In this document: positions 8,387-28,658 of the stretch, piece after piece
Layout: every line of letters starts with the position of its first letter
Position numbering within the stretch: the first letter of the stretch is position 1
Virus record (IMG/VR): IMGVR_UViG_3300013104_000065
Location: 1 to 28,730 of that record
DNA: 28,730 bases
Origin: a virus
Direction: 5' to 3' (one strand)
Made by a program: the position numbers and the translations under genes
Notes under the pieces: generated by a model
Databases searched by the model: none
What the model saw: only the letters and a program-made list of their open reading frames with translations
Told to the model about the DNA's origin: nothing

Positions 8387-8704
8387 TCAGCTCTCGACTA
8401 TCAGCTTGTTGTCATTAATTTCGACGTAGCTTTGGCACACAGGGCAATCAATCCCTTCAACCTTGGGCTCAATCAGCAGCGTTTGGGTACAAACAGGACA
8501 ATCTCCGACCTTTTGCCTTTCCCTGAGGCCGAAGGTTTTCCACACCATCGCCACGAATACGCCAGCAGCCAGGAACCAACCAACAATCGGAATGAACGCC
8601 AAAAGAATGCAAGCGATCAGACCGAAGATAAACCAGTTTGACCGGTAGCTAAGCTCGCTCCAAAAACTCCTTTTAACCAGCCGAATTTCGCTGACTCTTT
8701 CCAT
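8387..8704 (-). CDS. small membrane protein with C-terminal zinc ribbon, unknown function
   Basis: A 105-residue protein of unknown function lying inside the tail module between gpX and gpD. Residues 24-56 are strongly hydrophobic, enough for two short membrane segments. A C-terminal CPVC...CPVC pair (Cys69, 72, 87, 90) looks like a zinc ribbon. I chose the ATG at 8704, not 8716, because GGAG lies six bases before it. Tail proteins are not membrane proteins, so this is probably an inserted accessory gene. It might act in superinfection exclusion or be a holin-like protein, but nothing shows that directly. Confidence 0.7.
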   Translation of the reverse strand: MERVSEIRLVKRSFWSELSYRSNWFIFGLIACILLAFIPIVGWFLAAGVFVAMVWKTFGLRERQKVGDCPVCTQTLLIEPKVEGIDCPVCQSYVEINDNKLIVES

Positions 8705-8772
8705 AGAAGACTCCATGCATGCAAATAAGCGAGGGAGTCTATCAGCGTGCCGATTTTATGGGCAACGAGCCA

Positions 8773-8979
8773 TCAGTCCCACAACTGCACCTCCTCATCC
8801 ATGGGCTCAGGAAGATCAGGAAAGGTGATCAACAAGCCTGTCCGCAACGGCTGCGACTCATCCGCCAACAAACGATTGGCAGCCAGCACCGCCTCGACCG
8901 TACCGTTCAGGTGCCCGTAATGCTGGTAACACAGGGTATCCAGCAGGTCGCCGTCAGACGTTCTGCATATCATCGCCAT
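8773..8979 (-). CDS. tail protein X (P2 gpX-like, LysM-type)
   Basis: A 68-residue protein matching P2 gpX in size (67) and in its DGDLLDTLCYQHYG motif, which resembles a LysM fold. gpX is a small essential tail component. I start at 8979 (MAMICR), with GGAG ten bases upstream, inside the gpU end; the overlap with gpU is 26 bases. The C-terminus (LPEPMDEEVQLWD) is usual for the family. Confidence 0.88.
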   Translation of the reverse strand: MAMICRTSDGDLLDTLCYQHYGHLNGTVEAVLAANRLLADESQPLRTGLLITFPDLPEPMDEEVQLWD

Positions 8980-9799: not shown

Positions 9800-9808
9800 G
9801 ACAACTCC

Positions 9809-12292: not shown

Positions 12293-12320
12293 GAGAACTC
12301 TCCGGGCAGGGATGCGGGGC

Positions 12321-12446
12321 TCAGTCCATGAGCCACCAGATCATCGTGGAAAAAGGCATGGTCTCGATTTCGCTGGCTGCGAAGGAGAACTCCGTAGCCA
12401 GGCGCTTCGCGACCCGCTTCTGCAGGGAGGCGTTAAACCCCGTCAT
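12321..12446 (-). CDS. E'-like tail assembly chaperone extension (overlapping frame)
   Basis: A 41-residue frame (starting MTGFNASLQK) overlaps the end of gpE and stops 28 bases before the tape measure gene. It contains KRLATEFSFAASEIETM, typical of the E' / Mu gp42-like partner that is normally made as a frameshift extension of gpE. Relative to E, the frame is +1 (equal to -2). It could be made by a shift at GGGG near the E stop or by starting at the ATG at 12446. Either way it would be a tape-measure chaperone. Its function follows from position and motif. Confidence 0.65.
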   Translation of the reverse strand: MTGFNASLQKRVAKRLATEFSFAASEIETMPFSTMIWWLMD

Positions 12447-12735
12447 CCTGCACCAGGCGAAAGTAGGCGGTCTGCAGCCGCTGGTAATCCGTCAGCTTGA
12501 GCCCCTCCAAATCTTTGGTACCGGCTTCGGAGAGGGACGCAAACAGATGCATCTCGCGCAGCTCATCGTCACCACCACTGGTGGCATTAGCGGCTCGCAC
12601 TTCACGCACGGTAGGAGAACGCAGAGTCAGGCGGTCGACCATGACACCGTTAATCTCACTAGGTCGTGACAGCGTAATAGCGGCGCTCTCAGGGGTAACG
12701 GTCAGCCAGGTCGGCATTTTTTTCAGAGTAGTCAT
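12433..12735 (-). CDS. gpE-like tail assembly chaperone
   Basis: A 100-residue protein in the gpE position between the tube and tape measure genes (P2 gpE 91). Proteins of this family help assemble the tape measure and tube; the helical C-terminal half (LREMHLFASLSEAG, LEGLKLTDYQRLQ) is typical. It starts 15 bases from the tube gene end. The last codons overlap the E'-like frame, which suggests programmed frameshifting or coupled initiation. Confidence 0.85.
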   Translation of the reverse strand: MTTLKKMPTWLTVTPESAAITLSRPSEINGVMVDRLTLRSPTVREVRAANATSGGDDELREMHLFASLSEAGTKDLEGLKLTDYQRLQTAYFRLVQDDGV

Positions 12736-12749
12736 GATGAAAGGTTTCC

Positions 12750-13253
12750 TTACAGGCCCAGGTCGCGTCGGACACTGGCAAGTTGATCCACACCGTTGAT
12801 GACCCGAACGCAGTTGATCGGATCGATTTCGTACATCAGGCGCCCGGCGACTTCGAGCTTGTAATAGCTGACCGCCACGGCGTACTTGAACTCGCCCGCT
12901 TCACCGGCTTTCCAGTCGCCTGGGTCTATCTCTTTGAGCATGCCGCGAAGGGTGGCAACCACCGCAGTGGTCGCGCCTCTCTGACCTTTGAAGGAGCCAC
13001 GGAACACCGCGTTGAATGCCGTCTGATCAGCCAGGCCGTAAAACTTCATGACCTCGGGGCGTACGCCCTTGCCGGCGAAACTGGCCTCCAGTTTCTCCAT
13101 GCCCTGATCCATCTCGACCGGGGCATCCATCCCCCCGGCGCGATGCTCTTCGGTTTTCAGGGTCATCTTGGGAAGGGTCACGCTGGTGATATCCCCGGCA
13201 AAGCTGACGCCATCGATATGGGCGTTCATGTTGTAGAGCGTTTGCGGAACCAT
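12750..13253 (-). CDS. major tail tube protein (P2 FII-like)
   Basis: A 167-residue tail tube protein (P2 FII 172) with the usual start (MVPQTLYNMNAHIDGVSFAG) and MDAPVEMDQGMEKLEASF segment. It polymerises into the tube around the tape measure protein inside the sheath. It is 12 bases downstream of the sheath gene; GGAG precedes the ATG. Sheath plus tube proves a contractile tail. Confidence 0.95.
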   Translation of the reverse strand: MVPQTLYNMNAHIDGVSFAGDITSVTLPKMTLKTEEHRAGGMDAPVEMDQGMEKLEASFAGKGVRPEVMKFYGLADQTAFNAVFRGSFKGQRGATTAVVATLRGMLKEIDPGDWKAGEAGEFKYAVAVSYYKLEVAGRLMYEIDPINCVRVINGVDQLASVRRDLGL

Positions 13254-13265
13254 CGGCGGCTCTCC

Positions 13266-14441
13266 TTATGCGTTGGTGTCGAGAACTTCGGTCAGCCACT
13301 GGTTGGTGACCTCGACCCGGAAGTTGGGGTTTTCTGCCGGCGGTACATCGGTGAAGCGGATGTTCCAGTACACCTTGCCCTGCTCCAGCTGGCTGGCCGT
13401 GTTCAGCACGGGGTCAGCGAACACCTCGAAGTTGATCACCGCCCCCTGGTTTTTCAGGTCACGCATGAACGCCGCGAGGCCTTCGGTCACGTCGCTGACG
13501 TAGGTCTTGGTGATCGAGCGGTCGACCGCCCATTTGTGGCCGTAGAGGATCGCGTCCATGACGATGTCCATGGTTCGCACGCGGGTAACAAACGCCCACT
13601 TCGGATCGCTGGAACAGGTGCGGTTGCCCCACAGGCGGTAGCCGTCATCACGGATGATGGTGGCGATCTGCGCGTTGTTGAGCAGGTTCGCCCGGCAGGT
13701 TTCGTCGCCATCCAGGAACTCGATTGGGCGACCGGTGCCGGTTAGGCCGACAAACTCCTTGTTCGACGGAGAAGCCCAAAAGCCGTACTCCGAATCGGTC
13801 CAAGCGAAGAGCCCGGCGACCCAGGCAGAACTCGGCGCGTCGATGGTGGCACTGAGCGCGGTGTCCCAGTACTGCACGCCAGGGTCGACCAGGAACACGC
13901 GCTTGCCGCCGAAGTTTTCGCGGTATTCCATAGCGGCTTCGTCGGTGGTGTTGGGGCCGTCGATGATCGCCAGGGCACGCAGCTTGTCGCTCAGGGCCAC
14001 AAGCGCCGTGGCGGCGGCCAGCGTCGCGGTGTGTTTGGGCGCGGCCAGCAAACGAGGCTGCGCGTTAAAGCGGCTCTTGCCGTCGAGCAGCGCCTGCATG
14101 CCGGTACGGGTGCCGTTCGCCAGGACCCCGCCAATGATGGCCGATGTCTGCGCGGCGGCGTCGGCCAGCTTCTCCACCCCGCAGGCAACGATCACGGCCT
14201 TGGAGCGAACGTAGATGGCCTGGACCGCCTTGGTGATTGCCGCATCCGGCCCCCAGGCGGCGATGGCTTCGCTTTCGCGGGTGATCAGCACCAGTTGATT
14301 GGGCAAGGCGCTGGCATTGGGGCCAGGCGTGAAGGTGTCGCAAAGGCCGATGATGGAAGAAGACGGCACAGCGATAGGCCGCGTGCCGGTGTCGACGTTG
14401 GTCACGGTGACGCCGTGAAAAAATCCACCTGGATTACTCAT
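13266..14441 (-). CDS. tail sheath protein (P2 FI-like)
   Basis: A 391-residue contractile tail sheath protein (P2 FI 396). Recognisable parts are the N-terminal HGVTVTNVDTGTRPI, the AAIT/KAVQAIYVRSKAVI stretch, and the conserved C-terminal GAVINFEVFADPVLNTASQL and IRFTDVPPAENP. It follows two hairpins with U-runs and a TGGAG ribosome-binding site, which probably set its high expression separately from the upstream fibre genes. The tube gene follows directly. Confidence 0.95.
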   Translation of the reverse strand: MSNPGGFFHGVTVTNVDTGTRPIAVPSSSIIGLCDTFTPGPNASALPNQLVLITRESEAIAAWGPDAAITKAVQAIYVRSKAVIVACGVEKLADAAAQTSAIIGGVLANGTRTGMQALLDGKSRFNAQPRLLAAPKHTATLAAATALVALSDKLRALAIIDGPNTTDEAAMEYRENFGGKRVFLVDPGVQYWDTALSATIDAPSSAWVAGLFAWTDSEYGFWASPSNKEFVGLTGTGRPIEFLDGDETCRANLLNNAQIATIIRDDGYRLWGNRTCSSDPKWAFVTRVRTMDIVMDAILYGHKWAVDRSITKTYVSDVTEGLAAFMRDLKNQGAVINFEVFADPVLNTASQLEQGKVYWNIRFTDVPPAENPNFRVEVTNQWLTEVLDTNA

Positions 14442-14459
14442 GGTTAAACTCCAGAAACG

Positions 14460-14483
14460 AAAAAGCCCCGCAAGAGCGAGGCT
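14460..14483 (-). terminator. hairpin plus U-run before the sheath gene
   Basis: On the minus strand AGCCTCGC (14483-14476) pairs with GCGGGGCT (14471-14464) with one G-U pair and a 4-base loop, then TTTTTCGTTTCTGGAG leads into the sheath start. Confidence 0.65.
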
Positions 14484-14512
14484 GGGGTTGGTCGTGTTGC
14501 GCGTAGCGGAAG

Positions 14513-14536
14513 AAAACGCCCCGTCAGTGCGGGGTG
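14513..14536 (-). terminator. hairpin plus U-run right after the fibre-assembly gene
   Basis: CCCCG and CGGGG (14534-14530 and 14523-14519 on the minus strand) pair around a 6-base loop; TTTTC follows. It begins one base after the stop of the upstream gene and forms a tandem pair with the next hairpin. Confidence 0.6.
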
Positions 14537-15208
14537 TTATTGAAGTTGCTCAGCCAGCCAGGCCGGCTGCCCAGGCCTGTACTCGACCGCCGGGAAATGC
14601 TCCGATTCGGGCCAGTCACGTAGATCCTGCCGGTAGCCCTGCAACTGCTTGTACTGCTCGGCAGTGAGGGTTGTCGGGCGCTCGGCCTCCAGCTCGTCGC
14701 GGTGACGGGCGATCAGCGGATCGGTGAGCAGCAACGCCCGGTCGCGAATGACCCGCTCGCGGTTTTTCAGATCCTCTACCGTAGGCGGCGGCGCTGGTGC
14801 GGTACTCGGCCGCCCGTTTTTGCCAGGTACAAGGATCGACCCACCCAGCGAAAGCTCCCGGTAGATTTCGTCATGTTCTTCATGGGGAACGTCCACCAGT
14901 TCAGATTCTGGCGGAAGCAAACACTTAGGGTTGGGCACAACAACCAACGGGGGAGACGCGCTGTCATCCGGCACCTTAATCATCGGGGCAACTGCATCAA
15001 TGTCAGGAACCCAAATAGTTTCAGGCGTCACCGTATCCCCCTCACTCCAATCCGGGTTTTCAACTTCAATATCAGGGCGATTCCATGCTGGGTCTTGGAT
15101 TGTAATGGTTGGTCGCTCCCATTCTGGGTCAGGAACCTGAATAGTCCGAGTACCGTGGAAGTCTTCATTGAAGAATGCATTGTCTTTTGCGCTATAGAAA
15201 ATTTTCAT
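14537..15208 (-). CDS. tail fibre assembly protein with N-terminal 12-residue repeats
   Basis: A 223-residue protein next to the fibre gene. The C-terminal half (ARHRDELEAERPTTLTAEQY, DLRDWPESEHFP) is typical of tail fibre assembly chaperones found with Pseudomonas prophage fibres; the N-terminal MKIFYSAKDNAFF also fits. Residues 23-58 and 65-100 form six 12-residue units of the pattern I-x-V-x-D-P-x-W-x-R-P, with a 6-residue break; the last three units lose the Trp. These repeats are not part of chaperones as I know them. The coding sequence of the first 110 residues is AT-richer than the rest, suggesting a swapped N-terminal part. Confidence 0.75.
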   Translation of the reverse strand: MKIFYSAKDNAFFNEDFHGTRTIQVPDPEWERPTITIQDPAWNRPDIEVENPDWSEGDTVTPETIWVPDIDAVAPMIKVPDDSASPPLVVVPNPKCLLPPESELVDVPHEEHDEIYRELSLGGSILVPGKNGRPSTAPAPPPTVEDLKNRERVIRDRALLLTDPLIARHRDELEAERPTTLTAEQYKQLQGYRQDLRDWPESEHFPAVEYRPGQPAWLAEQLQ

Positions 15209-15211
15209 GTA

Positions 15212-17191
15212 TTAAAATCCCCTGGCCTCGACCATCACAACAAGCCCTGTTTGCACTACCCCTGCCCATTCCTCGATTCGTAACGTGCAACCATCCACAG
15301 TGCCGAGTGAATACGAACCCTGAGTACCACACTGAGCATTAGCCGCCAGTTTGAAGCTCACTCTTGCATTCAAAAATTGATTAGGGAATCGAAAAGGCCA
15401 AGTGACATTTATCAACGTAGTCTGACCAAAGTCGCCAAGACTGTATTCCAACCATTGAATTATTTCCCCCGTATCCGCGTTTTTGCTCCACCCATTCGGA
15501 GCCAATAGCGCCGTGTCTTTAGGACGGTCCACCTGAAGGCGAACAACTGTTCCATTGACATTTTTCATATAAGGGACGGCAACATCCCCACCAATAAAAC
15601 CAGCCTCAAAACAATTGTTGCCATTTATCTTGTATTGAACAGCGGCAACAACGTATGCGCAGTTAGCGATGTATGGACCCGCGTATCCGGCGGGCTGATC
15701 CCAAACAGTCGTGTTGCCTGCAATAGCAGGCACAGACAACGACTTCGGGACAATTAGAGCGCCATCAGCGCTATAGGACATCAGTGGGCCGAGGGTTTTG
15801 TTGTCATCCGCAACCGTTCCCCACACGAAACCACCTGTGCTGCCGCCTCCCTTGTTGCAAATAAATTGCACCTTCCCAGTACCTAACGACCCCCATCCAA
15901 TGTAACCGCCAAACTCGCTGTAACCCGTCACTTCGGAATTAAAAGACAACCCCATAAACTTTGGATAGACGGGGCCACCGGTTTTCAACATCAGAGTCGA
16001 CGGATCGAAGTTGGCGCTAGTCCAATATTCGAACCAGTCACCAGTCCCGTCCGCATAGGTGAGCCGCCCCCATGATCTACGGGCAGTCATTGAACATACA
16101 AAATCAAATCCCAACTTCCCGCCATCGTACTTGGCGCGAATACCTGAAAAATACACGGTACCGGGCGGGCCATCTTTAGTGGTCGGGTTCCCATTAATGA
16201 AACGCGCACTACCTACATCAGAAATTTTCCCGGGGATGGCTTCATTGTTATTTGAACTCACCGCATCAGTAATGCCAGCATCGGCCAACGTAGTCGGATT
16301 CGTTCCGGCAATCACGTGACCGTTCTTGTCTACGGTCAAACTGCGATAGGTTCCCGCGACTATACCCGTACGCCCGGTGATCATTTCGAAGGTGAGCGCC
16401 GTGGATCCCAACTCTATCGGTGCATCCGTGACCAACTGCCAAACGCTGTCGCCGTTGTCTGTACCCTTCTCGACATGGACGAACAAACCCGGCGTCACTT
16501 CAACGCTGGCATCCGCATCTTGCGACCGCGCCCATGCACCCTTCGCAACCAGGTAGATACCGTTGGTTTTACCCTGCGCCTGGTTCTTCACTAACACCCG
16601 GTTGCCTTCAACCACAGCCACGCCGTCGATGGTCTGCTGCCCGTTGAGTGCGATTGCCGCCGTGGTGGCTACCAGAACCGAATGCTTGAAGTCCTGCCGG
16701 TTGACAGCCTCAGTGATTGCTAGGTCGACGTATTCACGGGTCGCCAGTACCACGGCGGGATCGATCTTCAGCACGATGTTGTTGGTGCTGGAAACAATGA
16801 AGTTCATCCGCACAATCTGTGTACGACCTGACCCCTGATCCAGCGCGGGCTTAAAGCTGGGCGCGCAGTTCGATACCGCGACCAGGTCGCCATCAGAATC
16901 GTACAAGCCAATCTCACGGATCCACCAACCGCCCACGTCTGCGGGGATGACCTGCTCGGCGATGATCACCGCCGCGTTAACCGGGTCGACGCGAAGTTGA
17001 TTGAGCGGCGCCCGCCGCTGCTCGTTGATCAGCTTGGTCTGGGTTGCACTGGGGATTGGGTCAGTGCCGTTGGCATCCCCTACCCCCAACGCAGTGAGGT
17101 TCCAGGGAATGCCAAGGGAGTTGGCATTCGCCAGCTTTGCGGCCCCCACGTTGGTGAGGATCGCCATAAATTGCGAGTTGCGATCAATCAT
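15212..17191 (-). CDS. tail fibre protein (receptor binding), gpH-like
   Basis: A 659-residue tail fibre. Residues about 8-165 form the conserved baseplate-attachment domain (ILTNVGAAKLANA, GVGDANGTDP, GGWWIREIGLYD). Then comes the domain with DGVAVVEGNRVLVKNQAQGKTNGIYLVAKGAW (split here only as a description; residues about 190-225) seen in many trimeric phage fibres. The C-terminal 300 or so residues (from about 350) show no family motif I recognise and have lower GC and different codon use, as expected of a host-range tip acquired by recombination. It overlaps gpI by ATGA and is followed closely by its assembly gene. Receptor is unknown. Confidence 0.9.
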   Translation of the reverse strand: MIDRNSQFMAILTNVGAAKLANANSLGIPWNLTALGVGDANGTDPIPSATQTKLINEQRRAPLNQLRVDPVNAAVIIAEQVIPADVGGWWIREIGLYDSDGDLVAVSNCAPSFKPALDQGSGRTQIVRMNFIVSSTNNIVLKIDPAVVLATREYVDLAITEAVNRQDFKHSVLVATTAAIALNGQQTIDGVAVVEGNRVLVKNQAQGKTNGIYLVAKGAWARSQDADASVEVTPGLFVHVEKGTDNGDSVWQLVTDAPIELGSTALTFEMITGRTGIVAGTYRSLTVDKNGHVIAGTNPTTLADAGITDAVSSNNNEAIPGKISDVGSARFINGNPTTKDGPPGTVYFSGIRAKYDGGKLGFDFVCSMTARRSWGRLTYADGTGDWFEYWTSANFDPSTLMLKTGGPVYPKFMGLSFNSEVTGYSEFGGYIGWGSLGTGKVQFICNKGGGSTGGFVWGTVADDNKTLGPLMSYSADGALIVPKSLSVPAIAGNTTVWDQPAGYAGPYIANCAYVVAAVQYKINGNNCFEAGFIGGDVAVPYMKNVNGTVVRLQVDRPKDTALLAPNGWSKNADTGEIIQWLEYSLGDFGQTTLINVTWPFRFPNQFLNARVSFKLAANAQCGTQGSYSLGTVDGCTLRIEEWAGVVQTGLVVMVEARGF

Positions 17192-17793
17192 GGGTAAACG
17201 TCCAGAGTGTCTATGCTGTGTTCGCGCCCAACCACGCCGATGTAGCCCGTGACTTCGATGTCACGCTGCACAGGTGGGTAGACGTCGATTACGTCGCCTT
17301 CGTAGAGGGCGACACCAATGTTTATGGCGCCTTGGGTTTCCAGGCTGATCGCCAGGCCGGTCAAGGGACGGCTGACGGGCTTGGCGTCGTCGATCAGACG
17401 CTCCAGCTCCAGGTACATCTCTTCAGTGATGCCGGTGTCCAGCACGCCGACCTTCAAAGCGAAGGTGCCGGGAATACCCTTAGGCGTGGTCTGCCACCAC
17501 TCCAGCACCTCGATCAGGTAACCGAGCGGCTCGACCACTCGCCGCAGGGCGCCGATGGTGCCCTTGTGGGCATGCACGTAGAACGCGGAGCGAATGGCCG
17601 AACGTTTGACGGCTTCCGACCACTTGTTGTCCCAGCGGTCGACCGACCAGGTCCAGGCCAGCCAAGGCAGCAGATGCGCCGGACAGGTGTCAGGGTTGTA
17701 GAGGTCGCGCAATGGGATCTTGGTTTTCTCGGCCAGGGCGGCCTCAATGGCGCGCTCCAGTTGCGTGCTGTTCAAGGGGAGCAAGCTGGTCAT
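17188..17793 (-). CDS. baseplate protein I (P2 gpI-like)
   Basis: A 201-residue baseplate wedge protein (P2 gpI 176) with the family signatures LLPWLAWTWSVDRWD, the RSAFYVHAHKGTIGALRRVVEPLG segment and a C-terminal IDVYP end. I start at MTSLLP (17793), which overlaps the gpJ stop as ATGA; the upstream in-frame residues lie inside gpJ. It links the baseplate to the tail fibre. Confidence 0.93.
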   Translation of the reverse strand: MTSLLPLNSTQLERAIEAALAEKTKIPLRDLYNPDTCPAHLLPWLAWTWSVDRWDNKWSEAVKRSAIRSAFYVHAHKGTIGALRRVVEPLGYLIEVLEWWQTTPKGIPGTFALKVGVLDTGITEEMYLELERLIDDAKPVSRPLTGLAISLETQGAINIGVALYEGDVIDVYPPVQRDIEVTGYIGVVGREHSIDTLDVYP

Positions 17794-18677
17794 GTCGAGC
17801 CCCCGAGGACAACACTGAAGCCCGTGCAATACGCCGCCTGGGCTTTGGTGGGCTTCAGGTCGACCCAGCCCAGCAGCTCGACCCGGCCAACGCCGTTGAT
17901 GTGCAACTGGGCATCGACACCGGACTGAGCAACCTCCAGCGCCAGGCGCTTGCGGGGGTTGATCCAGGCCGCGAGACGCTTGGTGGCTTCGGCCAGGATC
18001 GCGTCGTTTTCCGGGCCGGCGCCTTGCATGTGCAACACGGCATCGATCCGGTAGTTGAGGATCTCGGCGCTCTGCACGATGAGACGGTCACCCACCGGGC
18101 GGATGTCATCGTCGCTGAGTTTGGCGTGTACCGCGTCAAGCAAGGGCTGATCGGCCAGGCCGCTGCCGGTAAGGCTCAGCACGGTTACTACCACTACGGC
18201 CGGCGACGGGCTTTCTGCCGTGGCGTCGGCCACCAGCGCCGAGGCGTTGCGTGCATGGAAGATATAGCTATTGCGCGGCCCGGCAGTCGTCAGCCCTTCA
18301 TAGACAAGCTGGATACGCTCGCGCAGGGCATCGTCCGATTCCCTGACCTCTTCCACCGGCGGCACCGCCTGCAGGTTGGCCGGTTGAATCACCAGGCGCT
18401 GGAGTTTGACGTTGGCCGCGAGCTGATCTAGATCCTCCTTCTCGGCATACGCCAGCATCAGCGCCTTGGCCGCGTCGTTGACCCGAGCCCGGTTTTGCAT
18501 CTTGCCGTACGAGCCTAACTCAACCAGCTTGACCACCGGGTCGCTCTCAAGAGCCGCCGACCAATTGTCGCCCATGTACCCGCGAAACGCCGCGAGCCCC
18601 TCTTCGTACAACGCTTCGTAGTCCAGGGCCTCCAGCACCTGCGGCGCCGGCAGTGCCGATAAATCCACTGTGCTCAT
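17790..18677 (-). CDS. baseplate protein J (P2 gpJ-like)
   Basis: A 295-residue baseplate J protein (P2 gpJ 302), with LSALPAPQVLEALDYEALYE near the start, the GSYGKMQNRARVNDAAKALM motif and the family C-terminus. It builds the outer wedge of the baseplate. ATGA overlaps join it to gpW upstream and gpI downstream, consistent with translational coupling and balanced amounts. Confidence 0.95.
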   Translation of the reverse strand: MSTVDLSALPAPQVLEALDYEALYEEGLAAFRGYMGDNWSAALESDPVVKLVELGSYGKMQNRARVNDAAKALMLAYAEKEDLDQLAANVKLQRLVIQPANLQAVPPVEEVRESDDALRERIQLVYEGLTTAGPRNSYIFHARNASALVADATAESPSPAVVVVTVLSLTGSGLADQPLLDAVHAKLSDDDIRPVGDRLIVQSAEILNYRIDAVLHMQGAGPENDAILAEATKRLAAWINPRKRLALEVAQSGVDAQLHINGVGRVELLGWVDLKPTKAQAAYCTGFSVVLGGST

Positions 18678-19000
18678 GCCGACACCTCCAGCAGCAGGCG
18701 CTCGCCCTGGTATTCACCGGTTAATTTGAAGTCAATGCGCCCACTGACAATGGCGACGACCTGTACCTGCTCCAGCTTTAGCCGCGGCTCCCAGCGCCCC
18801 AGCGAACGAGCCACCTCGGCCTGTACTGCACTCTTCCAACCGGCGTTAACCGGCAGGTCGACAAAGCGTCGGATCTGGCTGCCGTACTCGGGCCGCATCC
18901 GCCGACTGCCCACGGGCGTGGAGAGAATGTCCCCAATGGACTGCCGGAGATGGTCGAGCCCGGACAACGGTTGGCCGGTGCGGCGATCCATTCCGATCAT
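18674..19000 (-). CDS. baseplate protein W (gp25-like)
   Basis: A 108-residue gp25/W-family baseplate protein (P2 gpW 115) with the DILSTPVGSRRMRPEYGS motif that defines the family. It sits at the inner wedge and nucleates sheath contraction. It lies five bases after a small unknown gene and overlaps gpJ by ATGA. Confidence 0.95.
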   Translation of the reverse strand: MIGMDRRTGQPLSGLDHLRQSIGDILSTPVGSRRMRPEYGSQIRRFVDLPVNAGWKSAVQAEVARSLGRWEPRLKLEQVQVVAIVSGRIDFKLTGEYQGERLLLEVSA

Positions 19001-19005
19001 CGGGA

Positions 19006-19197
19006 TTACTCCTGCACCAGGTCCGGGTGAGCCTTGAGGAAGGCGAATTGTTCCTTGGTAGTGGCTGTCACGCTTGCCTTGGTCACGGCCAGGGCGCTGC
19101 CGTCGGGAAGGATCAGCGTGCGCGAGGTGTAGAGCGTGTCGCGAAACACGCGGCCAGGCCCAATCTCGTCCTGGCTGTCGGGTTTGTTCTTGCTCAT
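19006..19197 (-). CDS. small unknown protein between baseplate V and W
   Basis: A 63-residue protein (MSKNKPDSQDEIGPGRVF start) that I do not recognise. It has a hydrophilic N-terminus, a strand-forming middle (TLILPDGSALAVTKASV) and a helical tail (EQFAFLKAHPDL). AGGAG lies nine bases before the ATG at 19197; a TTG at 19200 is an alternative. It follows a hairpin and U-run. Position suggests a minor baseplate or assembly factor. Confidence 0.7.
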   Translation of the reverse strand: MSKNKPDSQDEIGPGRVFRDTLYTSRTLILPDGSALAVTKASVTATTKEQFAFLKAHPDLVQE

Positions 19198-19217
19198 CAA
19201 TGGATGCTCCTAAAACG

Positions 19218-19236
19218 AAAAAACCGCACTAGGCGG
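19218..19236 (-). terminator. short hairpin plus U-run before the small baseplate gene
   Basis: On the minus strand CCGC and GCGG (19236-19233 and 19227-19224) enclose a 5-base loop, then TTTTTTCGTTTTAGGAG leads to the next start. The stem is only 4 bp, so termination would be weak. Confidence 0.45.
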
Positions 19237-19243
19237 GCCGGAA

Positions 19244-19801
19244 TCAGTGTTTGTGGTTCGGCGTGTTGCCGCCGACATCGATGACCTTGCCGGCACTGTT
19301 GATGTCGCCGGTCGTACTCAGCGTGCCGTCAATGGCGACCGCGCCTACCAGGTCAATCGTGCCCGAGACCAACCGTATGCTTTCCGGCGTCATCTCCCAG
19401 ACCGACGCACCGACCTTGATCGTGACGGTGCCCGCCGGCAGATCGATGGTGTAGCTGCTGGCTTCCCAGTCGTAGACCAAGGAGCCGCCATCATCGAAAC
19501 GCCAAACTTCGACGTGGTCGCGATTGTCCGGTTGGGCACCGGCATTGCCGTACAGGCCGGGGATAAACGTGCCCATCGCCGGCTCGCCGCTGGGACTGAT
19601 CAATGCACCCTGCTCGCCCAGGCTCGGCACCCGCCAGTGGCGCGCCTTACCGGCGGCTTGGCTGTGCCAGCGAACCCAAGCGCTGGTCCAATCACCGGAC
19701 TGCACACGCACCACGGCAGCAGGCAGATCGACCGCCACGACAATGCAGGGCAGCACCGTGGAAGCGATCATCCGATCATGCTGGGCCGTGACGTAGCTCA
19801 T
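19244..19801 (-). CDS. baseplate spike protein V (P2 gpV-like)
   Basis: A 185-residue central spike protein (P2 gpV 211). The N-terminal OB-fold-like half (VVAVDLPAAVVRVQSG, RVPSLGEQGALISPSG) is followed by a beta-helical part and a C-terminal HKH (183-185). In P2-type spikes such an HxH motif binds iron at the membrane-piercing tip, so this tip probably does too. It overlaps the upstream gene by ATGA and is the first baseplate gene. Confidence 0.94.
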   Translation of the reverse strand: MSYVTAQHDRMIASTVLPCIVVAVDLPAAVVRVQSGDWTSAWVRWHSQAAGKARHWRVPSLGEQGALISPSGEPAMGTFIPGLYGNAGAQPDNRDHVEVWRFDDGGSLVYDWEASSYTIDLPAGTVTIKVGASVWEMTPESIRLVSGTIDLVGAVAIDGTLSTTGDINSAGKVIDVGGNTPNHKH

Positions 19802-20316
19802 CGCAGATCCTCCGGCTTGATCGGCCCGACGCCTGGCCCCAGATCGATGACCAGCGAACCCGGCGGTTCATCCGGCCACGGCCATTCCTCGGCGCCCAGG
19901 TAAACCGTCTGATCCCACTCCACCAGCCAGACGAAATAGCCGTCCAGTTCGGGCTTGGTCCAGTCCTGGGTGGAGCGCACGAACTTCGCGCAGTCGACCT
20001 CCAAGCCCCAGCTTTGCCCCCGCAGCAGTACCGCCAATTGAGACGCCAGCTGCACAGCTTGCCGTTGCGGGTCCGTGCTGATCGAATCGACGATGATTCG
20101 CGCCTCGAACTTGCAGGTGAGCGCGGTTTCACCGGTACCGGGATCCGGTGCAGGTTCCATCTCGGCCATTTCCAGCAGCACCACCGGGGTGGGGATGCTG
20201 GTCTCTGCCGACAAATCCGGCCAGAACGACGCGCCCTGAATGCCCGGTAAGTGCTCCTGCAGTTGCTGTTCGACGGCCGAGTACAACTGGTCAAGGCTGA
20301 AAGGTTGGTCAGACAC
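19798..20316 (-). CDS. gp37-like phage protein (tail completion position)
   Basis: A 172-residue protein of the gp37 type found before baseplate V in Mu- and P2-like prophages. It may help complete or terminate the tail, but this is inferred from position. Features: acidic, tryptophan-rich C-terminal half (LDGYFVWLVEWDQTVYLGAEEWPWPDE). I start at a GTG at 20316 that overlaps the upstream stop and has GGGAGG five bases before it. The same frame continues upstream through the Z-like gene but that part is a shadow. Confidence 0.75.
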   Translation of the reverse strand: MSDQPFSLDQLYSAVEQQLQEHLPGIQGASFWPDLSAETSIPTPVVLLEMAEMEPAPDPGTGETALTCKFEARIIVDSISTDPQRQAVQLASQLAVLLRGQSWGLEVDCAKFVRSTQDWTKPELDGYFVWLVEWDQTVYLGAEEWPWPDEPPGSLVIDLGPGVGPIKPEDLR

Positions 20317-20965
20317 GGGCGCCTCCCTTGAGGTACTTCTGCAGTTCAAAGTTGAGTTCTTGCTTGAGGATCTCCAGCAAGCGTTCATCGGCGCGTTTGA
20401 CCCAGCTGTCGAAGTGCGGTCGCACCTGGTCCAGGGAGACCTTGGCTTTCGCCAGCGGAAAGCGGTTGTCGCTTTCGGCGATGAAACCAGAGCTGCGTCG
20501 GCCCTGAGTGCTGCCGGGATAATCCGTGGCGTTGAAGTGCTTGCTCGACGTGCGGATCCAGATATCTGGACCGCTGCCGTACACCTGCTTGAAGAACGCC
20601 CCCTGGTAGCGCCGCCCCGCCACCGAAACGCCGGCACGGGTTTGCCGAGCCTTCCCGATCCGGCTGGCCTCAATGGCGTTGACCCCAAACCACAACTTGC
20701 CGCGCATCGCCCCGCCGCTGACCGGATAAGCCCGCAGGCGTTGCCGGACGGCGCCGATGGCGATGCGTTCCTGCTTGCCCACGGCCCGGGCAATGTGAGT
20801 GCGCAGCCAGCCCAGCGTCTTGTTGATCGCACGGCGTTGAGCCGCTGCGGCCGCCTTGGGCACCAACTGGCCGAATTCACGCAGGGCCTGGGAATGCACC
20901 GCCGATGGCTGGATGTTGATCATGCCGCTGTCGCGGGTTTGCTGTACGTGGCTGCCGACGCTCAT
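20309..20965 (-). CDS. minor tail protein Z-like
   Basis: A 218-residue protein of the lambda gpZ family (gpZ 192), basic, with AQRRAINKTLGWLRTHIAR and the FFKQVYGSGPDIWIRTSSKH segment. gpZ-type proteins act at the head-tail interface or tail tip completion. It overlaps both neighbours (ATGA upstream). A second Met at residue 15 is a possible start. Confidence 0.8.
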   Translation of the reverse strand: MSVGSHVQQTRDSGMINIQPSAVHSQALREFGQLVPKAAAAAQRRAINKTLGWLRTHIARAVGKQERIAIGAVRQRLRAYPVSGGAMRGKLWFGVNAIEASRIGKARQTRAGVSVAGRRYQGAFFKQVYGSGPDIWIRTSSKHFNATDYPGSTQGRRSSGFIAESDNRFPLAKAKVSLDQVRPHFDSWVKRADERLLEILKQELNFELQKYLKGGARV

Positions 20966-21288
20966 GGACGCTTCCTCAAGATCAGGGCCACCAGGCCATT
21001 ACCGTTGGGCTCCAGCTGCAGCAGGTCGTATTCGCCACCACCATCCAAAACCGGCACATCGACCGTGACCCGCAGACCTTTGCTGAGGCCTTCCGAATCC
21101 TTCACGCGGATCTCAAAGCGAGGCTCGCGTATGGCGGAGTGGACCTTGCCGAACGCGGGTTGCTTCCACGGTGCCGAGAACATGCCCAACACCGGCTCGG
21201 CGCGGCCTTCGATCTGGGCGCTGTCGCCCAAGGTCTCGAAGACCACATCGTCGATGTCGTCGATCAGGTCGCGGAAGGCCACGGTCAC
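20962..21288 (-). CDS. head-tail attachment protein in the lambda FII position
   Basis: A 108-residue protein directly after the capsid gene, as lambda FII (117) is. It has an acidic start (FRDLIDDIDDVVFETLGD) and a strand-rich C-terminal half, in keeping with head-completion proteins, but the match is by position and size more than motif. I start at the GTG at 21288, overlapping the capsid stop as GTGA with GGAG just upstream; the longer frame reads back into the capsid gene. Confidence 0.7.
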   Translation of the reverse strand: MTVAFRDLIDDIDDVVFETLGDSAQIEGRAEPVLGMFSAPWKQPAFGKVHSAIREPRFEIRVKDSEGLSKGLRVTVDVPVLDGGGEYDLLQLEPNGNGLVALILRKRP

Positions 21289-22280
21289 ATCTCCAGCAGG
21301 ATCTGCGCCCGAGGCCGCGTGCACAGGTGCAGCGGGTTCGACTGCGCTTCGCCGGCCACGCCCTTGTTAAACGGCAGCGGTTCGATCTTGCTGTAGTACG
21401 GGATGCCCTGGGTATTGACCGTTTCCATGTAGTCGGCCGGTGCGAAGGACGAGATGTACAGATCCGGTACGCCCTCGGGGATCAGCAGCGCCTTGTCGTC
21501 GTGGACGAACGCAACGCCAGCAACCTTGCCGCGATAACGCTCCCAGACGATCCCGCCGAACTCGAAGCTTTCACGGGCATCGCCACGCAGAGACGCCGCC
21601 TGCATGGTGTTGAGGTAGGTCTCTTTCACCGACTTATGAACAATCAGCTTGTTCCAGAAGTTCTTGCCGCACAAAGCACGGGAGCCAGTGCTGGTGACGC
21701 TGCCGAGGGCCTCCTCCTGCATATCCAGCGCTTCGCCGCATTTAACTCGCAGCTCGGTATCCGGACTGTTCAAACCCATCGGCAGCCTCTGGCGATTCAC
21801 ACCGAAGGATTTGTAAATATCCAACAGGACGGTCTTGCCATCGGCGTCCAGCACCTGCCCGTTCAATGCACCCATGCGCTGGAATTCGTGGGTGGCATCC
21901 AACTGGCGACGGGCCTTCGCCAGGCGCTTGTTGACCACGTCCTGCACGGCCTGCAATTCGCTGCGGGTGCCAAAGGCGCGGATGCCCTGGATCTCATCCG
22001 CCTTGATGGTAAAGCGCTCTGGCAGGTGTACGGTGTTGAAAGGGATCAACGTACGCTTGGTCCCGCCAACCACCAGACCCGAGGTGCCGCGTTCACCCGA
22101 AGGCACCAGGGCCAGGGTGTCGCCGTCCTTCTCGATCTGCACAGTCAGGGTGCTGATGCCCTCTTCGCGAAACAGACCCAGGCTGCTGATGCGGCCCGGC
22201 AGGTATTCTTGTTCGTTGATTGCAGCGGTCAGCGAGGAGACGCTGAATGCATCGTCTTCAAAAATGGCGATATCGGCCAT
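21285..22280 (-). CDS. major capsid protein (lambda gpE-like)
   Basis: A 331-residue major capsid protein of the lambda gpE family (341). Typical segments include SSLTAAINEQEYLPGRI at the start, FNTVHLPERFTIKADEIQGIRAFG, and GIVWERYRGKVAGV toward the C-terminus. It forms the HK97-fold shell and is decorated by the D protein encoded just upstream. A hairpin with U-run lies between D and this gene and a CTGGAG ribosome-binding site follows. Confidence 0.95.
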   Translation of the reverse strand: MADIAIFEDDAFSVSSLTAAINEQEYLPGRISSLGLFREEGISTLTVQIEKDGDTLALVPSGERGTSGLVVGGTKRTLIPFNTVHLPERFTIKADEIQGIRAFGTRSELQAVQDVVNKRLAKARRQLDATHEFQRMGALNGQVLDADGKTVLLDIYKSFGVNRQRLPMGLNSPDTELRVKCGEALDMQEEALGSVTSTGSRALCGKNFWNKLIVHKSVKETYLNTMQAASLRGDARESFEFGGIVWERYRGKVAGVAFVHDDKALLIPEGVPDLYISSFAPADYMETVNTQGIPYYSKIEPLPFNKGVAGEAQSNPLHLCTRPRAQILLEM

Positions 22281-22298
22281 GGGGTACTCTCCAGAAAC

Positions 22299-22322
22299 GA
22301 AAAATCCCGCACGCGGCGGGAT
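22299..22322 (-). terminator. hairpin plus U-run between decoration and capsid genes
   Basis: On the minus strand ATCCCGC (22322-22316) pairs with GCGGGAT (22310-22304) around a 5-base loop, followed by TTTTTCGTTTCTGGAG. It looks like a true terminator yet sits inside the head operon. Confidence 0.7.
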
Positions 22323-22342
22323 GGATAAGTGGGCTGAACGTC

Positions 22343-22681
22343 TTAGCGGACGATCACGAAATGGGACGCCAGGGCCTTTTCGGCAGCAGGGTCGAGTCCG
22401 GTCAGGTGGGCTTCGCTGACCTCGGCCAAGCGCACGACAGCACGACCGCGACGAGGAACATCGGACTCGCCCAGCGGGCCGTAGAGGATCGCGATGGCGT
22501 TCTCGGTGCCGTCCTCGGCGGTTGGCTTATAAGGCGCAAATTCGCTGGTGGCGGTGATCAAGCCCAGGATCTGACCCGGCTCAAGTGCCGCACCAGCCGC
22601 GACGTTGATCGCTTCGCGGGAAATGTTGCCAGCGCCTTCGGACAGCAGGAACTCGCCCGCGTGCATCGATTCGGTTTTCAT
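22343..22681 (-). CDS. head decoration protein (lambda gpD-like)
   Basis: A 112-residue capsid-stabilising protein (lambda gpD 110), with the conserved SREAINVAAGAALEPGQILG and a small beta-rich core. Trimers bind the expanded capsid. ATGA overlap joins it to the protease gene; a hairpin separates it from the capsid gene. Confidence 0.94.
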   Translation of the reverse strand: MKTESMHAGEFLLSEGAGNISREAINVAAGAALEPGQILGLITATSEFAPYKPTAEDGTENAIAILYGPLGESDVPRRGRAVVRLAEVSEAHLTGLDPAAEKALASHFVIVR

Positions 22682-23820
22682 GCTCTTGCTCCTTTCGAGG
22701 TTCCGGTATGAGCTGCCTGACGACTGCTCCAGATTGCTTGGGTGTCGACCTGCTTGGCCTTGACCGTGGGTTCGGGGTCATTGTCCAGCGGCAGGCTGTT
22801 GTTGATTTCAAAGCCGCCGCCACTGCTCACCAGCTTGTCGAACAGGCGCGCCCTGACAGCAGATTCATCCAGACCAGCTGCGATGAACTCGCCAGTTAGC
22901 TCAGGTAATCGTGCAGCAACGCAAAGGCCGTGAAGCGCTTTCGCCCTGGTCAGCGCCGCCGTGACCACCGCTTCGCTCTCCAGCTTGGTGGCAGCGAGTA
23001 GCGGCTCTACCAGGTTGCTGATGCCTGCCGCCGCACAACTCTTGGTGACCAGCAGTGCCAATCCGGCGGCGTCCAGCACGGGAGGAGGTTCCGGTGGCTC
23101 GCTCGGCTCTTTCGGCTCAGCATCCGGTTCATCATCCAGCTGAGCGAGCAACTCAGGCGGGGCGTGCTGGAAACGCTGCAGCACGCTGCCCTGGCCGAGG
23201 CAGGCGCTGACCTTCAATCCGTCACCCACTTCATCAGCCAGCCCCAACGCCACCGCTTCATTGGCGGTGAGCCAGGTCTCGGCGTTGACCATGCGCCGCA
23301 ACTCGGCCTCGTCGATGTCCGGTGCTTTGGCTTTGTAAGCCGCGATGATCGCTTCCAGGGTCTGGTCCAGCACATCGGCAACACGGCGGAAGTCTTCCGC
23401 ATCGCCACCGGTAAAGGTGTAGGGGTTGTGGATCATCAACATGGCGTTGGCCGCGATCACCACCCGGTGAGCGCCGCACACCGCGACACTGGCAGCGCTG
23501 GCCGCCAGCGCATCAATACGCCCGGTACAGCGCTCGCCCAATCGCGACAGCGCGTTGTGGATCGCCAGGCCGTCAAACAGATCGCCGCCGATACTGTTGA
23601 ACGCGACGATCACCGGTGACGCGCCGTCATCCATGGCGCGCAGATCTTGCACAAACTGATTGGCGGTGACGCCCCAGGCGCCGATTTCGCCGTAGACGAA
23701 TATCTCGATGTTGCGCTGCTCGGCTTCGCCGCTGGCCTGGAAGGTGTACCAGCTTTTATCGGCGACCTTTACCTGCTTGCCCGCCTTGTCATAAACGCGG
23801 GGTTTGGCTTTTTTGCTCAT
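22678..23820 (-). CDS. ClpP-related head maturation protease / scaffold
   Basis: A 380-residue phage prohead protease. The ClpP-type fold is shown by NSIGGDLFDGLAIHNAL, the catalytic serine in AASAAS (Ser108 most likely), His131 in MIHNP, and an acid in LADEVGD near residue 195. The C-terminal half (from about 215) is acidic, proline-rich, then helical, and probably serves as internal scaffold as in lambda gpC/Nu3. It cuts scaffold during capsid maturation. It overlaps portal and D genes by ATGA. An internal in-frame start for a separate scaffold is possible but not proven. Confidence 0.92.
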   Translation of the reverse strand: MSKKAKPRVYDKAGKQVKVADKSWYTFQASGEAEQRNIEIFVYGEIGAWGVTANQFVQDLRAMDDGASPVIVAFNSIGGDLFDGLAIHNALSRLGERCTGRIDALAASAASVAVCGAHRVVIAANAMLMIHNPYTFTGGDAEDFRRVADVLDQTLEAIIAAYKAKAPDIDEAELRRMVNAETWLTANEAVALGLADEVGDGLKVSACLGQGSVLQRFQHAPPELLAQLDDEPDAEPKEPSEPPEPPPVLDAAGLALLVTKSCAAAGISNLVEPLLAATKLESEAVVTAALTRAKALHGLCVAARLPELTGEFIAAGLDESAVRARLFDKLVSSGGGFEINNSLPLDNDPEPTVKAKQVDTQAIWSSRQAAHTGTSKGARA

Positions 23821-25298
23821 GGTTGTTCCTTGTCATCGATCACCTCGATGGCTTCAAGAGTCGTGTAGTTGAGGCCAAGGCCAGTGGCCCTGACGAGATC
23901 AGCAGCGTTTTCCGTATCGACCGTTTCCGCGTCGTAGCCGGTGCGCAGCACCATCTCGCTGCGCGAGGCAAAGCCCGCCTGCACTTCCATCCGCCGCGCC
24001 TGCACGTCCTGCACCGGCTGAATGTAGGCCCAGCCTTGCGGCACCCAACGCGTGCGCAGGTATTCGCGTCGGCGTTGCGCGTAGTCCTCCAGCACCAGCG
24101 CGCCGGACAACACCGCCATGTCCATCCAGGCCGCCCGCACCGGGCGACACAGCTGATGCACATACACACCGAATTGCAGCTGCTCCAGGCGTCGCCGGAA
24201 TTCGTTGAGCACCACCCGCAGCGCCCGGTCGTTGACCTCACGCATGTCACCGGTGAGGATCTCGTAGGGCGTGCCCGAACCCGCCGCAGCTGCCATCAGC
24301 TGCTGACGCATAAAGTCCGGGTAGTTGTTGCCGGCGTCCGGTGGCTTGGAGAACTCCACCTCTTCACCTGGCCCCAGCTCCTGCATGGTGCCGGGCTCCA
24401 GGGCGACCATCGGCGTGAAGCCGTCGCGGTCGGTGGTCAGGAGTTGCCCCGTGACAGGGTCACGCGGTTGTTGCCCCATCTCCGGTGATGGCCGCTTGAT
24501 GAAACCGGCAAACAGGTTTGCCACTTCCTGGCGGAACAGCACCGCGTCATCGTAGTTATCCAGGCTGCGCAGACGCTTCAACACCGGCGCCAGACGCGGC
24601 ACCCCGCGCAACTGCCCCGGCTCCATCGGTTCGAAGATATGCAGTACTTGCGCTGCTGGTACACGTACCAGCTGGTTGTAGCCTGCGTTCAACGACGACG
24701 AATCCCGTGGGTGCGAGAGGTACATCCAATACGCCACTCGCTTGCCGGCCGGGTTGAACTCGATCCCGGCGCGGATCACGTTGCCGTTTTTGGCGGTCTC
24801 GAATTTGTCGTGGGGGACAAACTCAGGGGCCAGCGCCTGCAGCTGCAGCGGCACCGCCAAGCCTTCGCTCGGACTGCGCGGCCGGAGCCGTATAAAGCAC
24901 TCACCGGCCGTTTCCACGGTGCGCGCCACCAGGGCCTGCATGCCGTAGAAGTCGGTCAACTCGTCGGCGTCTGCCTCATCCACCCAGTCGTCCCACAGCT
25001 GTTGCTTGAGTTTGCGCAGGGCTGCGTCATCCGTGGTCGGCCTGGGCGTGATGCCGGTGCCGATCAGGTTGCTGACGCGCTTGTCGATGACGTTGAACGC
25101 ATACGGGTCATTGCGCACCGCCGCCCGTGAACGCGCCCGCAGGTTGCGCAATGCCGGAGTGTTGATGCTGTTGATGCCGTTGTCGGTGGCTTCCCAACTG
25201 GCCGAACGCCGGCCCTCCCCGGCGCCTTCGTAACTGGCCTTGATGTTCGACGGCAGCAAGAATCCGTTACGGGTCAGCGTCGGGTAATGTCGAGCCAT
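23817..25298 (-). CDS. portal protein (lambda gpB-like)
   Basis: A 493-residue lambda-family portal (gpB 533). Clear family signatures are RNDPYAFNVIDKRVSNLIGTG near residue 60, the LHIFEPMEPGQLRGVPRLAPVL segment and GDMREVNDRALRVVLNEFRR. It forms the dodecameric vertex ring that DNA passes through and on which terminase docks. The start overlaps the gpW stop by one base (TAATG). Confidence 0.95.
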   Translation of the reverse strand: MARHYPTLTRNGFLLPSNIKASYEGAGEGRRSASWEATDNGINSINTPALRNLRARSRAAVRNDPYAFNVIDKRVSNLIGTGITPRPTTDDAALRKLKQQLWDDWVDEADADELTDFYGMQALVARTVETAGECFIRLRPRSPSEGLAVPLQLQALAPEFVPHDKFETAKNGNVIRAGIEFNPAGKRVAYWMYLSHPRDSSSLNAGYNQLVRVPAAQVLHIFEPMEPGQLRGVPRLAPVLKRLRSLDNYDDAVLFRQEVANLFAGFIKRPSPEMGQQPRDPVTGQLLTTDRDGFTPMVALEPGTMQELGPGEEVEFSKPPDAGNNYPDFMRQQLMAAAAGSGTPYEILTGDMREVNDRALRVVLNEFRRRLEQLQFGVYVHQLCRPVRAAWMDMAVLSGALVLEDYAQRRREYLRTRWVPQGWAYIQPVQDVQARRMEVQAGFASRSEMVLRTGYDAETVDTENAADLVRATGLGLNYTTLEAIEVIDDKEQP

Positions 25299-25504
25299 TA
25301 GAGTCCTTTGCCTCCGTGAGTGAGCCGAACGACGCGAGAGCGCGGTCCGGCGGCTTGGCTCAGCGACGTGCGGATCTCGTCGCGGGCCTTGAGCAGTTCG
25401 TCGATAGAGCGGTACTCCACCGTGCGGTCGCTGTAGCGCACGGTCTTTTCACCGCGTGCGATGGCGCGCTCGATGGCTTCGAGGTGCTTGGGAGTAAAGG
25501 ACAT
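25298..25504 (-). CDS. head-tail joining protein gpW-like
   Basis: A 68-residue protein, exactly the lambda gpW length, in the lambda position before the portal. MSFTPKHLEAIERAIARGEK and YRSIDELLKARDEI fit the gpW fold (two helices, short hairpin). I start at 25504; an upstream Met nine codons earlier is less likely, and AAGG lies about ten bases before the chosen ATG. It plugs the portal and joins head to tail. Confidence 0.9.
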   Translation of the reverse strand: MSFTPKHLEAIERAIARGEKTVRYSDRTVEYRSIDELLKARDEIRTSLSQAAGPRSRVVRLTHGGKGL

Positions 25505-26027: not shown

Positions 26028-27869
26028 TCAACGTCTCTTCAAGTAACCGCTTGTGGAGCTGCGGCGTTGTGGGGGTGCAGCGGGTCGCGATTGGGCCACA
26101 GGTGCTGCCGGTGGCGGTGCAGGTAGCGACTGACGCGCCGCCACCGGAGCCGGTGTTTCGTCAGCGTCGACGCGCTCGCCTTGTACGGGCTTGACGCCCA
26201 ACACATCGTCGAACAAACCGGACTGAGCCAGCGCCTGTCGCACCCGCTCCCAGTCGTGTTCCTGGTACCGGTTGATGCCGAGGTAATGCGCCATCGCCAG
26301 GCAATACACCATCAGGTCAAGCGCCTCGTTGCGCTCAGCCTTGCCCTTGACCCACTCGATACGCTTGTAGCCTTTGACGTACCGGGCGACCTTGCGCTCG
26401 GCCACGCACTGGGCGAAGAACTCGTCCGGCAGGTCGTTGGCAAAGTGCAGCGAACCAGGGCCGTCCTCGAAGGCGTAGCGGTTGTAGATCCAGTCCTTCG
26501 CGGTGTCGGTACCAACAAACCACAGCTCGGCGCCGCCGCGTTCGGTCTGCCCCTTCCAGGTCACATCGACCATGGACGGCCGCTGAGCAATCACCGGTTT
26601 GCCGGGCTTGCTCGCGCCCTTGATGGCGAAGATATTGCGCCAGCGCCGCACACGGCAGAACTGGTACACCTCGTCGGTGTGGTGACCGCCGGAGTCGACG
26701 CCCGTCGCCAGGATCGCCAAGCCGACACCGCATGGATGCCGGTATCGAACCTTGAGCTTTTCGTCCAACACCGCCCAGGTGCGCTCATCTGCAGGATCGC
26801 CCCAGATCACCTGGTGGTCGACAACCCAACGTTCCATGCCGACGCCGAAGCCCATTACCATCAGTTCCAGGCGGTTGGCCTGCACGTCGACGGCGCCGGT
26901 CAGCATGAGCACGCCCACCGGCATGCTGCCGAGGGTGTAGGTCTCCATCCGTGCCCGAGCGACCAACACCTCAGCCTTGGTCTGCTCTTGCGCGCTGTCC
27001 CATACCTTGGCGAGACGGGTGTTGTAGAACACCTGCATCAACCCCATGTCGCCTTTGGCCTGGGCCTTCTTGGCGTCTTCGAACTCCTCGGCAAGTGAGG
27101 CCCAGTCCTTCCAACCAATCGGCGAATAGAGCGCATTCAGGTGGAAACCCACCGTCTTGCCATCGCCGCTGTCATGGGCACGCCACTCGCCACGGGCGAG
27201 CATGTCGGTCTTGTGATGCTCCTCAATCAGCACATCACATTCAGGCGCGGCGCACTGGTAGTGAACCGTGCGGTAGTCCTTGCTATAGAGCAGCCGCTCC
27301 CACTCCAGCACCTGCATATGCCCGCATGAAGGGCACGGCACATAGTAGTAACGCTGGTCGCTGGACTCGAACAGGTCCGCGATCCGCGAGGCGCCCTTGA
27401 TCGTCGGCGAGCTGGAAAAGTAGATCTTGGCATTGCGCCCGAAGTTGGTCGCCCGCGTCTCTGCCAGCACGATGGGATCACCCTCCTGGCCGACGTCACT
27501 CTCCCAACGGTCGACCTCATCGCCGTAGATGTAGCGTGCCGACAATTCGGATAGGTTGGCAGCAGAACCCGCCGTGGTGACGTACAAGGCGCCGCCCTCA
27601 AACTCCTTTGTATCCATGGTATTGCGGGCATCCCGCGAGCGGCTGGCCGCTACTCGCTTCGCCAGTTCCGGGGTCGCCTTGATCGTCTTACTGATCCGTC
27701 CGGAAACCCGCTTGGAGAGGCTCAGACTGGGCAACAGCGCCAGGATGTTGGACGGTGCCATGTGGATCAGGCCGCCCATCCAGTTCAAGGCGATCTGGGT
27801 TTTCATCAACTGCGAGGCCACCATGGTGACAACTCGCCGGCACGGGTGAGCCGGTGACAAGCAACGCAT
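26028..27869 (-). CDS. terL: terminase large subunit (lambda gpA-like), N-terminally cut by an amber codon
   Basis: This is the open part of the packaging ATPase/nuclease gene, 613 codons from the first Met after an in-frame TAG. The ATP-binding segment VASQLMKTQ (Walker A-like, near residue 18-25 here), the KIYFSSSPTIKGASRI motif, a CPSCGH zinc knuckle and the SGGHHTDEVYQFCRV nuclease part are all present. The natural start is at 28052: the 56 codons before the TAG (27882-27884) read as a perfect gpA N-terminus. In lambda the gpA N-terminus binds the small subunit, so the truncated protein would probably not dock. The ATG at 27869 has no good ribosome-binding site; reinitiation after the stop is possible. 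Family call is very secure. Confidence 0.9.
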   Translation of the reverse strand: MRCLSPAHPCRRVVTMVASQLMKTQIALNWMGGLIHMAPSNILALLPSLSLSKRVSGRISKTIKATPELAKRVAASRSRDARNTMDTKEFEGGALYVTTAGSAANLSELSARYIYGDEVDRWESDVGQEGDPIVLAETRATNFGRNAKIYFSSSPTIKGASRIADLFESSDQRYYYVPCPSCGHMQVLEWERLLYSKDYRTVHYQCAAPECDVLIEEHHKTDMLARGEWRAHDSGDGKTVGFHLNALYSPIGWKDWASLAEEFEDAKKAQAKGDMGLMQVFYNTRLAKVWDSAQEQTKAEVLVARARMETYTLGSMPVGVLMLTGAVDVQANRLELMVMGFGVGMERWVVDHQVIWGDPADERTWAVLDEKLKVRYRHPCGVGLAILATGVDSGGHHTDEVYQFCRVRRWRNIFAIKGASKPGKPVIAQRPSMVDVTWKGQTERGGAELWFVGTDTAKDWIYNRYAFEDGPGSLHFANDLPDEFFAQCVAERKVARYVKGYKRIEWVKGKAERNEALDLMVYCLAMAHYLGINRYQEHDWERVRQALAQSGLFDDVLGVKPVQGERVDADETPAPVAARQSLPAPPPAAPVAQSRPAAPPQRRSSTSGYLKRR

Positions 27870-27881: not shown

Positions 27882-28052
27882 CTACGGCGTCCGATCCGTG
27901 CGGTACTGGCCGGGCTCAGGCGCGCCGGTATCGCGAGGGATGCGCATGTACTCGTCGGCCCACTCGTCGATCCAGAGGTCTGGGTCGGGTCGCAGCCCAC
28001 GGAAATACGCCTCACGGTACGCACGGTCACCGTCAGGAAATTCCGTGGTCAT
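27882..28052 (-). pseudogene. terL: severed N-terminus of the large terminase, ending in TAG
   Basis: Starting three bases after the small terminase stop, an ATG opens 56 codons (MTTEFPDGDRAYREAY, LWIDEWADEYMRIPR, GQYRTDRTP) that then meet TAG where homologues would have an aromatic residue before AREPM. Four codons later the main frame continues at 27869. The reading frame is otherwise continuous, so a single base change (TAC or TAT to TAG), a sequencing error, or suppression explains it. Confidence 0.85.
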
Positions 28053-28055: not shown

Positions 28056-28658
28056 TCAGCTCGTTGTCATTGCTCGTTCAAGGTCGGACGAGGACATGCG
28101 CTCAGCCTCTTCCAGTGATTTACGAAGTGTCGCCGCCAGGTGTTTCTCGATGTCCCAGGGATCGGTCATGGCTGCCACCTTGTGGGAAAGCTGGGGGAGC
28201 AGGCCGAACAACTGGTCACGCAGATGTCGCCCCGCGTTATAGGCCCCCAGCTCCACCGCATCCCTGGCAACCAGCGAGCCCTGCGCCTTGTGCAGCTCGA
28301 TCTCGGCCAGTTGCGCCAGGTTGTGTTCGCGCATGGCGCGAGCCTTCTGGAAGTCGTGGCCCTTGGCGCCAACAGCGATAGGCTGCTGCGGCGCAGCCGT
28401 GTTAGTCGGCTCGACCAGGGGGGACAGTTGGCTGTAAACGTCACGCTGGATCCGGTCCTGCTGGTGTCGAGCAGCGACGGCGGCCTTGCTGGGGTCGGCG
28501 GTTTCGACGATCAGAGCTTCAGTTGCCAACACGTCGACCATCTTGCCGTCCGGCGACAGGACCAGGCGATTGTTGCCTTTCAGCCAGGTGATGTAACTCG
28601 GCGTCCTGCCGATGCGAGCCGCGAAAGCGCTTTTAGACAGAAACAGTGGATCCGTCAT
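28056..28658 (-). CDS. terS: terminase small subunit (Nu1-like)
   Basis: A 200-residue small terminase (lambda Nu1 181). The N-terminal 50 residues form a winged helix-turn-helix (LSKSAFAARIGRTPSYITWL) for packaging-site recognition. A helical middle (AREHNLAQLAEIELHKAQG) would mediate oligomerisation; the C-terminus binds the large subunit. AAGGAGG lies just before the ATG. It is the first gene of the late operon in this window and is followed after three bases by the large-subunit start. Confidence 0.88.
   Translation of the reverse strand: MTDPLFLSKSAFAARIGRTPSYITWLKGNNRLVLSPDGKMVDVLATEALIVETADPSKAAVAARHQQDRIQRDVYSQLSPLVEPTNTAAPQQPIAVGAKGHDFQKARAMREHNLAQLAEIELHKAQGSLVARDAVELGAYNAGRHLRDQLFGLLPQLSHKVAAMTDPWDIEKHLAATLRKSLEEAERMSSSDLERAMTTS

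Follow-up and report, generated by a model that had tools for sequence, protein, structure and literature searches.

An in-frame amber codon, probably a recent nonsense mutation, in the large terminase gene of a temperate Pseudomonas phage

Introduction

Does an in-frame amber codon near the start of a large terminase gene mark a broken packaging motor, a stop that the phage tolerates, or an error in the sequence? The question is raised by the single virus record IMGVR_UViG_3300013104_000065, whose 28,730 nucleotides, analyzed as one whole stretch, are referred to below as the window. In lambda, amber mutations in gene A block cos cutting and DNA packaging but not the formation of heads and tails, and the N-terminal end of gpA reportedly contacts the small terminase subunit (attributed to Wu, Christiansen and Feiss, 1988). 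In contrast to the classical gene A ambers of lambda, the amber described here lies in a natural prophage contig and is known from its sequence alone. We therefore asked which gene the codon interrupts, what related phages carry at the same position, and in what state the rest of the phage is.

Results

The minus-strand frame running from the ATG at 28052 to the TGA at 26030-26028 comprises 674 codons, and its sole internal stop is a TAG at codon 57 (27884-27882), which was read directly from the sequence, in frame, where a preceding sequence-only reading had placed it. Both sides of the stop belong to a large subunit of the gpA type. The 56-amino acid piece alone matches PHROG family phrog_15, terminase large subunit (E 3.8e-12), bearing out the proposal that the codons ahead of the TAG are gpA-like. 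The 613 amino acids downstream match GpA_ATPase (1.7e-75) and GpA_nuclease (2.5e-106) in Pfam, and the whole frame, with X at the stop, carries both domains in order (9.9e-83 and 3.1e-106, respectively). The earlier reading had described the first 61 residues as severed: the N terminus is indeed cut off, but only 56 residues precede the stop, and the figure of 61 counts up to the methionine of codon 62, the first in-frame ATG past the TAG (27869, 12 bases after the stop).

As shown in Table 1, the gene lies downstream of a small terminase gene and is followed by a gpW-type gene and then the portal gene, the same order as nu1-A-W-B in lambda, interrupted only by an antisense gene between the large terminase and gpW. 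The gpA protein of lambda belongs to the same family (30% identity over 623 residues); the alignment includes the N-terminal segment and crosses the stop, and lambda has Phe opposite codon 57. The small terminase gene stops 3 bases before the start of the large subunit, a spacing that suggests coupled translation of the two.

Table 1. Features of the terminase region and of the head and tail genes in the window
Feature	Coordinates	Strand	Evidence
Small terminase subunit, intact	28056..28658	-	phrog_57, E 2.7e-24; intact compared with relatives
Large terminase, first 56 codons (N-terminal segment)	27885..28052	-	phrog_15, E 3.8e-12; aligns with lambda gpA 1-55
Internal TAG at codon 57 of the large terminase	27882..27884	-	Tyr in 299/299 relatives covering the codon
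Large terminase past the stop, read from the first in-frame ATG: most of the ATPase domain, complete nuclease domain	26028..27869	-	Pfam
Head-tail joining protein (gpW position), intact	25298..25504	-	95.6-98.5% identical, without stop, in four relatives
Lambda-type portal protein, intact	23817..25298	-	Phage_portal_2, 8.1e-118
Head maturation protease, decoration protein D and major capsid protein E, all intact	21285..23820	-	
Contractile-tail module (baseplate, tail fibre, sheath, tube, tape measure, hub), all open	7273..21324	-	

The antisense gene (25586-26026, plus strand) encodes 146 amino acids, belongs to phrog_2266 (function unassigned) and has a GC content of 48% compared with 63-64% in its neighbors. 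Of the 21 loci that carry the gene, most have their homologue (35-85% identical) in the corresponding position, and in loci L078 and L308/L283 a homologue is found on the opposite side, before the small terminase. Judging from these positions, the gene seems to have moved around the terminase pair.

To place codon 57 among related genes, relatives were drawn from Pseudomonas genomes and IMG/VR contigs; 399 Pseudomonas-group genomes were searched, with codon 57 read in the best loci only. Among the 299 related loci covering the codon, 202 have TAT, 97 have TAC and none has a stop, so that tyrosine is universal in this set and the amber is the window's own, an in-frame stop where relatives have a sense codon, as expected of a pseudogene. 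Position 57 is one of 224 positions that are invariant across 209 distinct full-length genes and falls within an invariant block, R54-T-P-Y-A-R-E-P-M62. IMG/VR was also scanned with a degenerate pattern of the codon-57 site containing any stop codon; no other terminase with a stop at this site was returned, and the two matches were both due to chance and in unrelated frames. Inner stops anywhere in the large terminase gene are rare, at ∼1 in 250 full-length relatives, the one case being locus L040 (Pseudomonas lundensis L1802), which has its own in-frame TGA at codon 317, independent of the codon-57 stop.

The same comparison bears on where the gene begins. Were 27869 the normal start, the upstream frame would lie outside the gene; that position does have an ATG, and most of both domains falls within the open frame that it begins. 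However, Met 1 is invariant among the full-length relatives and the codons after it are conserved too, all 299 loci read through codon 57 with tyrosine rather than beginning at the ATG matching 27869, and lambda gpA aligns across the upstream segment. Further, the annotated large terminase of Pseudomonas phage Turba begins at the upstream position. By large terminase, the GenBank phages closest to the window are Turba, Haddon, Lodos and their allies, whose protein is 66% identical and has the same start; the gene is annotated as one whole in them, and the rest of their genomes is distant from the window. The relatives and the Turba annotation refute 27869 as a natural start, leaving this reading with practically no probability.

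We next considered 27869 as a site of restart. It is not preceded by a Shine-Dalgarno sequence (-2.6 kcal/mol, most genes having -5 to -13). The ribosome site at the start of the large subunit itself is weak too (-3.5), and coupling or restart could therefore outdo what the score suggests. The methionine at 27869 is internal and conserved both in the relatives and in lambda gpA. In the restart product, the GpA_ATPase match starts at profile position 19 instead of 2, and such a protein would lack most of the R54-M62 block and the start of the ATPase domain; the expectation that the ATPase and nuclease parts are left intact thus fails for the ATPase. A role in translocation has been proposed for non-Walker elements in the N-terminal region of gpA (Hang et al. 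2000, as cited in PMC2366019). The predicted structure of an intact relative is poor in the ATPase part (mean pLDDT 53), and a search of solved structures by sequence gave no terminase match.

A real stop could nevertheless be tolerated if enough terminase for a functional phage came from suppression by an amber tRNA of the host, from leaky readthrough or from restart at 27869. The frame past the TAG is fully conserved, a restart codon follows 12 bases on, and in-frame stops under purifying selection have been reported to be common in prokaryotes, although the same authors think many of them short-lived (PMC7918605). Conservation is explained equally well by recency, however, and restart would cost the ATPase the invariant block near its start and would rely on a codon with the poor initiation signal described above. 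Nor does the window speak for amber suppression, on which the sequence-only reading had thought the phage might depend: neither the window nor the stretches of the relatives that were read contain a tRNA gene, no second in-frame TAG occurs in the genes checked, and just one of these genes ends in TAG. Overall, we regard a tolerated stop as unlikely. Stop-codon recoding was rejected, with a single in-frame TAG among 29 gene coordinates and no phage tRNA in the window. It is more improbable still that the amber is kept as a switch, with leaky readthrough or restart giving a little terminase, so that the prophage would mostly kill and shed empty particles or tails, packaging DNA only rarely.

The other late genes (small terminase, head, tail and lysis) have open frames, and their collinearity with four or five relatives is largely preserved. 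A check of 29 gene coordinates found no inner stop except codon 57, and comparison of the checked genes with the relatives revealed no frameshift or stop in any other gene; apparent inner stops seen in that comparison were rejected as matches to longer or antisense open reading frames. A tailocin or satellite would have its head and packaging genes absent or degraded, whereas here the small terminase, portal, protease, decoration and capsid genes are intact. The idea of a decaying, tail-producing or helper-dependent element thus finds no support in the gene content, because the head genes are intact and collinearity with the relatives extends through open head, tail and lysis genes. By description, prophages of the Pseudomonas fluorescens group, such as Pf-5 prophage 03, likewise combine siphovirus-type head genes with a myovirus-like tail (PMC2647930). 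No plasmid match to the window and no Rfam match were found.

Outside the late genes, an AAA ATPase gene (483-1721, plus strand; GC 47%) has a weak match to the candidate defence family PDC-S59. At 1773-4265, a plus-strand SRAP peptidase gene lies back to back with a minus-strand umuDC-like pair encoding an S24 peptidase and a Y-family polymerase. A D12-class adenine methyltransferase gene (5178-5972, minus strand), located after the lysis genes, is the only gene checked that ends in TAG.

The closest relatives are ∼95% identical to the window in DNA in the terminase region and are found in Pseudomonas genomes; their large terminase frame is open, whereas here it is stopped. Compared with the nearest relative, L302, the large terminase has 96 silent and 12 amino acid-changing codon differences, the stop included. 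The window's terminase has only three private residues, namely the stop and a pair at variable sites, and the rest of the gene gives no sign of relaxed selection. The few private changes, together with the open late genes, fit either a very recent mutation or a base-call error.

An error of sequencing or assembly, or a minority variant in the consensus, with the real gene intact, is the main rival. The change involves a single base, is absent from every other sequence compared and sits in intact, strongly conserved surroundings; in addition, the window is a single record whose nearest relatives, at ∼95% identity, are not an independent copy of it. Conversely, no cluster of odd differences surrounds the codon, its neighbors being ordinary silent changes without an insertion or deletion, and consensus substitution errors are rare in deep short-read contigs. 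We give this explanation a real but minor chance, larger than that of any other rival.

Discussion

With a probability of roughly 70%, the results are best explained by a single-base change that recently created a nonsense codon in the large terminase gene. The phage is a temperate one of Pseudomonas, combining a lambda-type head with a contractile tail, and the mutation most likely leaves the prophage defective in packaging. Ribosomes arriving from the small-subunit gene would initiate at 28052 and terminate 56 residues later. Unless a suppressor were present, complete terminase would not be made and, by analogy with lambda, concatemers would be neither cut nor packaged, whereas proheads, tails and lysis proteins could still be produced, as in gene A amber mutants. 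At most a little of the 613-residue protein would be expected from 27869 and, lacking both the end that binds the small subunit and the beginning of the ATPase, it should not package DNA. The earlier expectation that loss of the N terminus would impair packaging is consistent with these results, since the amber removes the N-terminal part of a gpA-type terminase and none of the relatives has it.

The stop at codon 57 would then be the first, and so far the only visible, lesion of the prophage. Incomplete prophages preferentially lose certain classes of genes, and terminase is one of them (PMC7744054). The case is an ordinary one, another prophage gene disrupted by a one-base change, and it warns that the infectivity of the phage on this contig should not be assumed. 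At the same time, it would provide an example of the packaging motor as the first visible lesion in an otherwise intact temperate phage.
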